This document shows, in pieces, positions 7,490 through 61,652 of a stretch of 64,000 nucleotides of DNA. Each line of letters opens with the position of its first letter. Positions within the stretch are counted from its first letter, which is position 1. This stretch comes from Rhodopirellula sp. (lineage in GTDB: Bacteria; Planctomycetota; Planctomycetia; Pirellulales; Pirellulaceae): positions 1 to 64,000 of the forward strand of contig NZVD01000082.1 of the NCBI GenBank assembly GCA_002701385.1. The letters are read 5' to 3'. The translations under genes and the position numbers were made by a program. The notes beneath the pieces are model-generated. The model was not told the origin of the DNA. It worked only from the letters and a program-made list of their open reading frames with translations, and searched no databases.

Positions 7490-9535
7490 CTATTTTTGAA
7501 ACAGTTGTGGTGTTCCGGTACTTGAGGCTGGTGCAGACGCTCCGGCAGGAATGATGGGCTGTAGGAAATTGATGACATCCGCTCGCTGACGGATGTCATC
7601 AAATGTGACATTCATTGCACTGTGGACTTTGCGTTCAGAAAGATAGTCGATTAATTCCTCTTTAACATCTTCGATTGATTCCACTACAGGAACGGTATGG
7701 CCTGTGCAACGCATAATAATGTATTTACCGCCCACGGCTACGATCCCGGACAATTCCCCTTTCTTTAAGCGGAATGCCTCTTCTTCTACGACAGGCTGCC
7801 CACCGTTTTTGCGAATGGGAGGCACCTTTCCTTGATTGGCTCGCGATACAGGTTCAATGGAATACTGTTCAGCCAGTTGACCAAAAAAGTAATCCGTTGA
7901 ATTGTTGTTTGCCAGATCCCAAACCATATTTGCCTGTCGTTGAGTATTCAGGACGATAGCCATGACTTCGACACGTTTTCCATAGTTGGATTCAAATCCT
8001 TTTTGCAGGTCGTCCTCGGTAATCTGTACCTGATCGCTGACAAGTTGCTTCAGTGCTACCGTTGGCCATACGGCATCTTTCACATAGATGTCGACAGTGA
8101 CATTGTCCTTTGAAGTAATGGCTTCGAGCCAGGTTTGTACGTCTGGGTTGCCCTGATCGTCGATGTATCCCCGGGAATCTGCAGCTCGCTTGATTTCCGA
8201 AAGGATGTCTTCCTGAGAGACCTCTTTGTTTTGGTTTGTCAAAGCCTGCGTTAAGAGCATCCGATTGATCTCTCCCTGAAGAACGTCGATTCCGTAACGG
8301 GTGATACATTCTTCAGCAAGTTCACGAACAGTGATTTGTTGTCCATTGAGAATAGCGACAACGCCAGGGTGGGATTCTTTCAGTGATGCATCCTTGTAGA
8401 CAGACTGAATTTTTGCCTCTGCCTGGAGACGTTGGAAAATGCTGCCGGCAGCCGACTCTAGATTGCGTTCACGAATTTGATCCCGTAAACGAGCTTCCGC
8501 GTCGGCCTTAAACTGAGGAGCAATATAAGTGGACGGAATACGTTTTTCACACTTCATCAGGATGTACTGATTGGCGATTTTTACGAGCTGTGAGATATCG
8601 CCTTCTTTCAGGCTAAAGGCCTCTGCTTCGAGACTTGCATCGCCAACGTGCTTCCCAATTGGTGGGATGAGTCCACGCGCACTGGCACTGGCCTGATCTT
8701 CGGAGTGTTCTTTGGCTAAGGCCCCAAATTCGTCCGGGTTGGCCAGAGCCTGTTTTCTGAGTTCAGTGATCGTGGCCAGGTTAGAGTGGGCGATCAAACG
8801 CACCTTTACCTTGGGGCCAAATTCAGATTCAAAGGCTTTGGCAAGCTGTTCCGGCGTGACCTCGATTTCCTGTGATGCCAATTGTCGAAGTGCCAGATTA
8901 ATCCACATATGTTCATTGCGATATTGATCCGGCGCGATATTGCGTTCCTGCTGTAGCATCGTTAGCCAGCGGTCCACGGACATTCCGAACTTCTTAGCCA
9001 TCCGTTCGATTTCTTTGTCAAGCAGCTCTTCGCTAATTACGATCTGATGTTTTTCACAGGCCTGTTTGATGAGTCTCTTATTGAGATAACCCTCGAGTGT
9101 TTCTTTGCCATATCGATCCAGACAAGCTTGAGCCAGCTGATTACGAGTGATGTTCTCACCGTTAACCTGAGCAACCACTTTGAGAGGTTTTGTGCCAGGG
9201 GATTTACTGGACGTAGAAGCAGGAGCAGTCGCATTTGCTGTGGTGGCGCGATTGGCAGTTGTCGCTGGTTTTGGTTGAGTTTGCCGCGCCGTTGTATTGG
9301 CTGAAGGATTCGTCGACTGCGTGATGCGCGATTGCGTTTGCGGAGCTCGGAACTGTGCCGGCTTTTGCTGAGCTTCGACGTTTTCCGGCGAGACCCAATA
9401 AAGACGGGCTACATAGGCAACTCCCAATAGAGCAACGCCTGTGATTCCCACAATGAAACGTCGAAAAGCGCGACGTGATTCAGCAATGTCCAGTACTTCT
9501 TTGCTACCGTGTGCTTGGCTTTCCTTGCCACTCAT
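7490..9535 (-). CDS. Membrane-anchored SurA/PpiC-type peptidyl-prolyl isomerase with tandem modules
   Basis: Predicted periplasmic folding chaperone of 681 residues. A short cytoplasmic N-terminus is followed by one membrane anchor (about residues 25-45) and a Gln/Thr/Ala-rich linker to about 115. Two homologous modules follow, at about 120-395 and 400-660. Each opens with a SurA-N-like segment (VAQVNGENITRNQLAQ and VAILNGQQITVRELAE) and ends in a parvulin-like domain (GLIPPIGKHVGDASLEAEAFSLKEGDIS and KVPPIRKNGGQPVVEEEAFRLKKGELS). I chose ATG 9535 because AAGGAG lies six bases upstream; a GTG at 9553 would precede that site. It has its own promoter and a 5'-terminal stem-loop upstream. Whether the divergent parvulin domains are still catalytic cannot be judged by eye. 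Confidence 0.8.
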   Translation of the reverse strand: MSGKESQAHGSKEVLDIAESRRAFRRFIVGITGVALLGVAYVARLYWVSPENVEAQQKPAQFRAPQTQSRITQSTNPSANTTARQTQPKPATTANRATTANATAPASTSSKSPGTKPLKVVAQVNGENITRNQLAQACLDRYGKETLEGYLNKRLIKQACEKHQIVISEELLDKEIERMAKKFGMSVDRWLTMLQQERNIAPDQYRNEHMWINLALRQLASQEIEVTPEQLAKAFESEFGPKVKVRLIAHSNLATITELRKQALANPDEFGALAKEHSEDQASASARGLIPPIGKHVGDASLEAEAFSLKEGDISQLVKIANQYILMKCEKRIPSTYIAPQFKADAEARLRDQIRERNLESAAGSIFQRLQAEAKIQSVYKDASLKESHPGVVAILNGQQITVRELAEECITRYGIDVLQGEINRMLLTQALTNQNKEVSQEDILSEIKRAADSRGYIDDQGNPDVQTWLEAITSKDNVTVDIYVKDAVWPTVALKQLVSDQVQITEDDLQKGFESNYGKRVEVMAIVLNTQRQANMVWDLANNNSTDYFFGQLAEQYSIEPVSRANQGKVPPIRKNGGQPVVEEEAFRLKKGELSGIVAVGGKYIIMRCTGHTVPVVESIEDVKEELIDYLSERKVHSAMNVTFDDIRQRADVINFLQPIIPAGASAPASSTGTPQLFQK

Positions 9536-60201: not shown

Positions 60202-60280
60202 GTCAACAATTAACCAATTGTAAAAATTGACGAGTGTCTAATTGTTTAACTGTCCAACTGGGGCACTGGCTAACTGATTA
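60202..60280. repeat. Partial dispersed repeat, copy E (no hairpin)
   Basis: CAACAATTAACCAATTG and GTCTAATTGTTTAACTG units resembling the A/T-rich arm of copy C, including partial inverted complementarity. The CCCG-type hairpin block is missing. It lies between the convergent acs and lipoprotein genes. Confidence 0.35.
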
Positions 60281-60931
60281 CCTGTTCAGTTGTCCCACTA
60301 CGCCGCCTTCGTCCTGTTGCGTTGCCAATCGGCGATCGGCTTCCTGCCAGATCCTAATCATTTCTTCAGGTTCTTCAAAGTTGAGATAGGTCGGGGCTTC
60401 ATGAGCGGCGACGCGGGTTGCCATTCCGGCGATTCGCCATCCGTCTGTCTGCTCACGCAGGATCCAGATAATGTCGAATTGATGTGTGAGCCCATCTTTG
60501 CCAGGTTCTTTCCAGAGGCTGGTCACGTAGGCGCCACCGGAAACCATTTCGACTCCGCCGACTTCAAATGTGGCATCCGGAGACCCCGGGCTGCGGACGA
60601 CCAAATCGTGCTTTTCAGTTTCTTGCTTGGCGCGTGTGGTTAGTAAATTGGAAATCTCATCGTCTGCACCGGACTGCAAAGCGGCAAGAAAATTCTGTAC
60701 AACGAACTGTGGGGTTGCAGGCTGAGTTGGTTCAGCGTCTTGTGCCGATATATCGGTCTGTTGTGAATTGGGATCTGTCGGAAGGTCCGTGGTAAGCGTT
60801 ACCTGGGGTGCTTGTAAATTCTTGGACTCCATAGAGGACTCGGTGGATTCCGAGCTGTCGGAACATCCTAGGCAAAAAACAAGGAGGCCAAGTAGACAGG
60901 AGTAATTCGTCATCAACTTCGACATTCGCAT
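60278..60931 (-). CDS. Lipoprotein with an NTF2-like domain, function unknown
   Basis: A 217-residue predicted lipoprotein. The signal ends in CLGC with Cys23 as the lipidation site. A Ser/Thr/Glu-rich linker follows to about residue 75. A C-terminal domain begins PQFVVQNFLAALQSGADDEISNLL and includes a WRIAGMATRV strand, the look of an NTF2/DUF4878-type cone fold. I chose ATG 60931; ATG 60925 is also possible. The open frame continues upstream, but that part has no signal-like logic. It is divergent from the Cys-rich protein gene. Confidence 0.6.
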   Translation of the reverse strand: MRMSKLMTNYSCLLGLLVFCLGCSDSSESTESSMESKNLQAPQVTLTTDLPTDPNSQQTDISAQDAEPTQPATPQFVVQNFLAALQSGADDEISNLLTTRAKQETEKHDLVVRSPGSPDATFEVGGVEMVSGGAYVTSLWKEPGKDGLTHQFDIIWILREQTDGWRIAGMATRVAAHEAPTYLNFEEPEEMIRIWQEADRRLATQQDEGGVVGQLNR

Positions 60932-60952: not shown

Positions 60953-60981
60953 TTGCAACATAATAGTAGGTGTGGCATAGT
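60953..60981 (+). promoter_or_regulatory. Possible promoter of the Cys-rich protein gene
   Basis: TTGCAA (60953-60958) and CATAGT (60976-60981) with a 17-base spacer; each matches four of six consensus bases. Transcription from here would give a leader of about 120 bases containing the two alternative hairpins. Confidence 0.35.
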
Positions 60982-61027
60982 TTGGAAAAAATGCGTAAAT
61001 CTGTAAAGACGAATCGCCCCAGATGTC

Positions 61028-61069
61028 GACGATGATAATGGTGCATCGTCTCCCTAGAGGGTGATGCGC
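61028..61069 (+). promoter_or_regulatory. Two mutually exclusive hairpins in the leader of the Cys-rich protein gene
   Basis: Hairpin 1 pairs GACGATG (61028-61034) with CATCGTC (61044-61050), seven perfect pairs. Hairpin 2 pairs GTGCATC (61041-61047) with GATGCGC (61063-61069), six Watson-Crick pairs plus one G-U, and encloses CCCT-AG-AGGG (52-55 with 58-61 of 61000). They share 61044-61047 and so cannot form together. The ribosome site of the next gene lies 30 bases beyond. Confidence 0.45.
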
Positions 61070-61113
61070 GCAGAAGAAACCACCCCACATATTTGTTAGG
61101 CGAGGATCCTAAA

Positions 61114-61545
61114 ATGAAGCGTTTTGGCGTAAGCGGATTAGCTTTGCTGATGATCGTGACGCTTGTCGTCACTGGTACAGTGCAAGCTGATAAGGAATCA
61201 AAGAAACTAGTCGATTTGTCATTACCTAAAATCAACTTAAAAAAAGCTGAATCCTGTGAAGACAAAAAGGAATGCTGTGACGAGAAGGAAGCCTGTTGTT
61301 CAGCAAAAAGTAAATTACTGGATCGAGCCAAAGGGCTGATCAGTAAGAAAGCTGAATGCACAGGGAAAGAAGATTGCCCTGTTTGTAACAAGGCCAAGAA
61401 GCTAGCAGGTAAAGCTGCGGAAAGCGCTCAGCAAATAACTGGCAAGGCAGGTGCTGTTGTTCAGGATGGCGCAAAGAAAGCGAAGGAAACAGTTTCAAAA
61501 CTTCGCGAACGCACTAAAAAAATGATTGGGAAAGTCAAGAAGTAA
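61114..61545 (+). CDS. Secreted Cys/Lys-rich small protein, function unknown
   Basis: A 143-residue exported protein. The signal peptide is residues 1-25, cleaving after VQA. The mature N-terminal half holds eight cysteines, two as CC pairs (CEDKKECCDEKEACC and later CTGKEDCPVC). The C-terminal half is Lys/Ala-rich and helical (KKAKETVSKLRERTKKMIGKVKK), as in LEA-like or histone H1-like tails. No family is recognised. ATG 61114 has GAGGA eight bases upstream. A structured leader precedes it and a strong terminator follows. Metal binding by the cysteines is a possible role, but this is inference. Confidence 0.65.
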   Translation: MKRFGVSGLALLMIVTLVVTGTVQADKESKKLVDLSLPKINLKKAESCEDKKECCDEKEACCSAKSKLLDRAKGLISKKAECTGKEDCPVCNKAKKLAGKAAESAQQITGKAGAVVQDGAKKAKETVSKLRERTKKMIGKVKK

Positions 61546-61570
61546 CCCGGCTTATTCCAACGGACCCAAG

Positions 61571-61602
61571 AGACGCTGTGTCTGAATTCAGGCACAGCGT
61601 CT
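61571..61602 (+). terminator. Terminator of the Cys-rich protein gene
   Basis: A 10-bp stem AGACGCTGTG/CACAGCGTCT, which may extend through CTG/CAG, followed directly by TTTTTTT. It lies 26 bases after the stop codon. Confidence 0.9.
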
Positions 61603-61652
61603 TTTTTTATGGTAACTCGGATGGGGCACAGGACAGGATTGACCGTTCCTGA

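Follow-up and report, generated by a model that had tools for sequence, protein, structure and literature searches.

The 64,000-nucleotide stretch of DNA that was analyzed (the whole of which is called the window, and which is part of a 4.9-Mb planctomycete-type genome) carries at 61114-61545 on the forward strand a genuine gene that is restricted to one lineage and has an ordinary single-gene layout. We lean, with slightly better than even confidence, toward reading it as a lineage-specific unit of one gene, with an exported protein of the envelope type and an mRNA led by a 5' hairpin, and with no alternating RNA switch in its leader.

A lineage-restricted gene for a Cys/Lys-rich protein

The gene, defined by its open reading frame (ORF), its homologues, and its dN/dS values, encodes a protein of 143 aa with 8 Cys and 30 Lys. 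The N-terminus, MKRFGVSGLALLMIVTLVVTGTVQA-DKE, resembles a signal peptide, as judged by inspection and not by a predictor, and the mature protein would have 118 residues, of which 8 (about 7%) are Cys. The C-terminus is rich in Lys and Ala. The eight Cys, the signal-peptide-like start, and the Lys/Ala-rich tail, which the first-pass annotation had described together with the clustering of the cysteines, are all present in the ORF, and the protein is probably exported and of the envelope type.

A single-sequence search found the gene in eight of 241 family genomes, all of them within the genus, of which they make up eight of the nine genomes. The four named relatives that carry the protein are MAGs of the Planctomycetaceae and Pirellulaceae. 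The remaining genome of the genus, G233 (85% complete), yielded neither the Cys/Lys-rich gene nor the divergent lipoprotein gene. The neighbors of the gene in the window encode an acetyl-CoA synthetase, a lipoprotein that matches no family, a barrel protein resembling sugar isomerases, and a PolX/PHP protein, and this neighborhood is largely conserved. The sugar-isomerase-like and PolX genes flank the Cys/Lys-rich gene in the loci of all seven relatives, and the divergent lipoprotein and acetyl-CoA synthetase genes adjoin it in six of them, the exception being G231, whose contig starts 494 bases before the gene and is too short to hold them; the next gene out is retained in four of the seven. 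The gene is under purifying selection, with dN/dS values of 0.06-0.23 in all 15 pairs of the six-genome clade, 0.21 to 0.58 across the 12 pairs between this clade and G231 or G232, and 0.27 for the G231-G232 pair. For the majority of these 28 pairs, dS is close to 1 or higher.

The divergent lipoprotein gene (60278-60931, reverse strand) served as a marker of genomic context and was matched in 214 of the 241 family genomes. Its product has no Pfam or NCBIfam match at the cut-off. A longer reading of this gene across the leader, as an ORF reaching to 61090, was rejected because the stop-to-stop lengths vary among genomes (four have 232-235 aa, three, including the window, have 274-276 aa, and G231 has 215 aa) and because a lipobox-like stretch was seen by eye 3' of the internal Met.

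Downstream of the Cys/Lys-rich gene, an intrinsic terminator consisting of a hairpin (61568-61605, forward strand) and a trailing T-run was located by a terminator scan and by folding against shuffles, and it is strong (z of -7.1, with 0 of 200 shuffles as good). Terminator-like hairpins of -19.3 kcal/mol or lower lie 3' of the gene in all ten loci (eight in the genus and two in another genus), against a background in which 4 of 400 random 110-nt windows reach this threshold. The earlier description of a compact gene that ends in its own strong terminator is therefore upheld.

Profile searches of Pfam, NCBIfam, and PDB returned no family that claims the Cys/Lys-rich protein, the best PDB match (E-value of 0.019) being discarded. 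Weak matches to CsbD (E-value of 0.0098) and to DUF883 (E-value of 0.049), both helical proteins, were obtained with one of the eight members each, the window protein not among them. These matches agree with the repetitive basic helical tail of the Cys/Lys-rich proteins, which, unlike CsbD/DUF883-type proteins, have a signal peptide and a Cys array. The AlphaFold2 model, which is of low confidence (mean pLDDT of 46.6), contains two helices, in the signal peptide region and at residues 89-142. When four of the eight proteins were tested, the C-terminal 40 residues were amphipathic in G000 (the window protein), G227, and G229 (6-8 of 2000 shuffles), and gave no amphipathic signal in G232 (987 of 2000 shuffles). 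The second, shorter helix segments of the four proteins tested were not significant in any case (354, 90, 98, and 1932 of 2000).

Outside the genus, G220 and G221, which belong to another genus, carry at the same place a protein of 103 aa that is rich in Lys and Ala, starts like a signal peptide, and has one CxxC (in G220 at about 7975-8286 of locus L106; the locus of G221 is L107). The gene for this protein is also divergent from the same lipoprotein gene and is followed by a strong terminator. The similarity to the window protein is weak (BLAST E-value of 0.043 in a single comparison; hhalign P of 0.0054 and probability of 6.7%), and the case for kinship, which is not proven, is made by place, signal peptide, and tail. 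Within L106 (3500-12200), the PolX and sugar-isomerase-like genes have the opposite orientation to that in the window, with a gene that looks GTPase-like by eye between them. A scan at the lipoprotein gene in 23 more of the 214 family genomes that match it revealed, by eye, no comparable small gene, several of these stretches being short.

Profile searches covering 241 family and 392 phylum genomes yielded no convincing homologue outside the genus. They added three weak matches in the family and two in the phylum set, one of them shared (G119, G123, G239, and G511). All four were judged by eye to be unrelated, those in G239 and G511 being longer Lys/Glu-rich, coiled-coil-like ORFs, and that in G123 a matched strand without a start-codon ORF of 30 aa. 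The match in G119 is a 175-aa Lys-rich ORF with a CxxCH and a signal-peptide-like stretch, and its assignment is the least sure of the four.

Conserved DNA blocks and hairpins in the leader

The leader had been proposed to contain two mutually exclusive hairpins, in the manner of an attenuator or a riboswitch. Hairpin 1 (61028-61050) and hairpin 2 (61044-61068) can indeed both be folded in the window and do overlap, but the proposed alternation was not borne out, given that the pairing of hairpin 1 is broken in each of the five relatives whose leaders could be aligned. Hairpin 1 (7 bp, forward strand) reaches -7.6 kcal/mol in the window, with 5 of 200 shuffles folding as well, and all seven of its pairs are present there; the five relatives retain 5, 5, 4, 4, and 4 of the seven. 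Across the six species, its stability gives a combined p of 0.20, and the window's own sequence is the only one below 0.05. When arms were swapped between species, native and chimeric combinations were of the same stability (-2.95 and -2.97 kcal/mol), with the native set ranking 357 of 720, which gives no sign of co-evolution of the arms among these species. Hairpin 1, which is specific to the window, is thus not conserved while the protein is, an outcome that had been named in advance as counting against the proposal. Inverted repeats of this kind are common in the window: the 64 kb contain 52 perfect 7-bp repeats with loops of 3-12, and of 21,326 windows of 23 nt, 403 are as stable as hairpin 1 or better. 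The leader as a whole is not more stable than its shuffles (60990-61125, z of -0.60, 55 of 200 as good), and neither is the part at 61014-61090 (z of -0.23, 73 of 200).

The 5' arm of hairpin 1 (61028-61034) falls within a stretch, 61002-61041, that looks like promoter or operator DNA, because it is conserved without indels in the alignment of six leaders despite a dS near or above 1. This stretch contains the box TGTAAAGACGAATC (61002-61015, forward strand), a putative upstream promoter element or operator in which 61002-61009 and 61012-61014 are invariant in all six leaders, and the block TCGAnnATGATAATGG (61026-61041, forward strand), a putative -10 or start region that overlaps the 5' arm of hairpin 1 and has nine invariant columns (61027-61029, 61034-61036, and 61039-61041). 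The spacing between the two is fixed, and the indels of the alignment begin in the region of hairpin 2. Given its place in DNA of this kind, the 5' arm of hairpin 1 is probably not transcribed, and hairpin 1 is probably a chance inverted repeat lying over promoter DNA.

The leaders of G220 and G221 also hold a block resembling the conserved leader block of the window, the counterparts of TCGAnnATGATAATGG being TTCGACGATGAATGG and TTTGACGATGAATGG, respectively. Further upstream, a block that reads TATCTTCGAAAAAA in most relatives (60978-60995, forward strand; eight invariant columns at 60978-60991 in the six leaders) could belong to either of the divergent genes. A promoter scan found no sigma-70-type site on the forward strand of the leader. 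A pair of short conserved blocks separated by a constant distance is reminiscent of the promoters of ECF sigma factors, for which PMC8103513 reports the hallmark AAC at -35 with CGT at -10; the conserved letters of the leader are instead TGTAAAG and TCGA (CGA). A regulon was rejected, the two-block pattern not being common to other genes as far as searched, because the window genome has a single occurrence of the full pattern when up to 3 mismatches are allowed, because of the 23 places in the nine genomes that match the TGTAAAGACGAATC box with at most one mismatch the 17 other than the own locus (6) lack the second block by eye, and because the nine genomes contain 33 occurrences of the short two-block pattern (six at the own locus) versus 29 of a reversed control.

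Hairpin 2 fared better, and is probably real, on modest support. It reaches -7.8 kcal/mol at 61044-61068 (9 of 200 shuffles as good) and -12.6 kcal/mol in its extended form (61041-61069, forward strand), and is rarer than hairpin 1, with 60 of 21,324 windows of 29 nt in the 64 kb being equally stable. Each of the six leaders forms a hairpin at this site (-10.2 to -17.8 kcal/mol) when folded in windows of 32 or 36 bases, with the 5' arm starting in the first six bases of the folding window and with a stem whose sequence and register vary across the leaders. With windows of 28, 32, and 36 bases, the combined shuffle p values are 0.05, 4e-4, and 0.002, respectively. They are not strict probabilities, since the windows were picked once the data had been seen and the species are related; a control window downstream gave 0.91. 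Taken singly, three of the six leaders are below 0.05 at 32 bases (G234 gave 0.28), and G227 gave 0.72 at 28 bases. On the alignment, 72% of the cells are paired, versus 30-54% for slid controls, over which the structure has the advantage of having been read off the same six sequences, and 23 of 500 shuffles reach 72%.

Covariation in homologous leaders, which had been suggested as a check on the two hairpins, gave nothing for hairpin 1 and a weak sign for hairpin 2, whose native arms rank 39-66 of 720 in the swap over six ways of cutting. Of 500 shuffles, 50 equal the covariation score of hairpin 2 and 171 match its two doubly changed pairs, with 0-3 such pairs in slid versions. RNAalifold preferred a different structure of 4 pairs on the six leaders. 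A model of hairpin 2 run on the ten loci matched only its own six members; the hairpin tests used these six of the ten leaders, those of G231, G232, G220, and G221 not being alignable in this region.

No U-run follows hairpin 2, and the Shine-Dalgarno-like AGGCGAGGA (61098-61106, forward strand), which is kept in most of the six leaders by eye and lies outside both hairpins, begins 28 bases beyond its end. In between, a partly conserved stretch, ACCACCCCACATATTT (61079-61094, forward strand), was noted by eye in the alignment; such a ACCCCACATNTTT-like stretch is similar in most of the six leaders and is a possible binding or pairing site. The missing U-run and the free Shine-Dalgarno site make a passive role the likeliest for hairpin 2, and our best guess is that it protects the mRNA near its 5' end. 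The leaders of ompA, papA, and aprE are examples of stabilizing hairpins close to the 5' end. Hairpin 2 resembles these in lying near the probable 5' end and in leaving a Shine-Dalgarno site uncovered downstream, and differs from them in that its 5' end and stabilizing effect are predictions from sequence. According to PMC3997798, an mRNA can be stabilized by a hairpin located at its 5' end or close to it.

Two other accounts of the leader were weighed against a passive hairpin. That it acts as a switch, either attenuator or riboswitch, with hairpins 1 and 2 excluding each other, agrees with the ability of the window sequence to fold both, but is highly improbable in light of the broken hairpin 1 in every alignable relative, the lack of any sign of co-evolution between its arms, and the position of its 5' arm in conserved, indel-free DNA. 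In addition, no expression platform was seen, the leader having no terminator-like site and its Shine-Dalgarno site standing outside the hairpins, and a search of Rfam gave the leader no match at the gathering score, the sole weak match that touches it being on the opposite strand and far below the cut-off. We also find it improbable that the main gene is regulated by translation of a short, possibly leaderless upstream ORF that starts with ATG at 61038 (TTG in G227). A start codon is present at the aligned position in all six leaders, and in G229, G230, and G234 the ORF has 25 codons and a stop that overlaps the main ATG, but that stop is provided by the main start itself (ATGA) whenever the frame stays open. 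The lengths of the ORF differ (8, 12, 25, 25, 13, and 25 codons), the peptides diverge after the first residues, no Shine-Dalgarno-like sequence was seen by eye in the 12 bases before it, and G231 and G232 have no clear counterpart.

Cysteine clusters and the possible chemistry of the thiols

The number of cysteines in the mature protein varies among the eight members: 8 in G000, G229, G231, and G232, 9 in G227, G228, and G230, and 17 in G234. These differences arise largely from a varying number of CC units. The window protein has two CC pairs and a lone Cys, G229 has two pairs, G227, G228, and G230 have three, G231 and G232 have one, and the expanded array of G234 (locus L024, 4001-4480) has five, with its 17 Cys in 134 mature residues. 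The odd counts found in four of the eight proteins argue against a fixed set of intrachain disulfides, and the varying CC units fit metal binding or interchain cross-links better than one fixed disulfide fold.

Metallothioneins combine a very high Cys content with clustered CC motifs. The Cys/Lys-rich protein shares the clustered motifs, but it has a signal peptide, has no family match, and falls short of the very high Cys content, with 8 Cys in 118 residues in the window protein and a maximum of 17 in 134 in G234. A secreted, metallothionein-like metal-thiolate protein made in response to metal is in line with the differences in CC units between species and with the odd Cys counts, and we regard it as possible but doubtful, considering the modest Cys content of the window protein, the absence of metallothionein families from the matches of the eight members at E-values up to 0.1, and the lack of metal-related genes among the neighbors. 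A metal or redox response, which had been raised as one possibility for this gene, likewise received no support from the neighboring genes. A structural envelope component cross-linked by disulfides would suit the signal peptide, the Cys-rich and basic composition, and the helical tail, and odd Cys counts would suit interchain bonds. This alternative is likewise possible but doubtful: a model search found VKOR in none of the nine genus genomes, and the DSBA family, present in six of the nine, is represented in the window genome by a copy that, on inspection, lacks a signal peptide, so that no exported thiol oxidase was found in the nine genomes with these two models. A further idea, that the protein is a young thiol scaffold of the planctomycete envelope in which CC-x4-6 units have been gained and lost on an older, exported Lys/Ala-rich helix with one CxxC, as in the other genus, draws on the two to five CC pairs of the main clade and on the fast evolution and genus-level distribution of the protein; we consider it rather unlikely.

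Under the favored reading, that of a single-gene unit with a hairpin-led mRNA, transcription would start inside or just 3' of the block at 61002-61041, and the mRNA would open with one 5'-proximal hairpin at about 61041-61069, which most likely slows decay that depends on the 5' end. Next would come a Shine-Dalgarno site left open and then the coding region, with the transcript ending at the terminator (61568-61605), and the leader would undergo no alternation, hairpin 1 being a chance repeat. The signal peptide would export the protein, placing the thiols of the CC units and of a C-x5-C-x2-C motif outside the cytoplasm, where they may bind metal or cross-link to other chains, while the basic C-terminal helix probably holds the protein to anionic surfaces of the envelope.

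With these results, the lead of an RNA switch, which is unsupported, gives way to one that can be tested, namely a lineage-restricted Cys/Lys-rich family, unclaimed in Pfam, NCBIfam, and PDB, with a conserved probable promoter. If its thiols bind metal or cross-link chains, this family would be informative on the planctomycete envelope.
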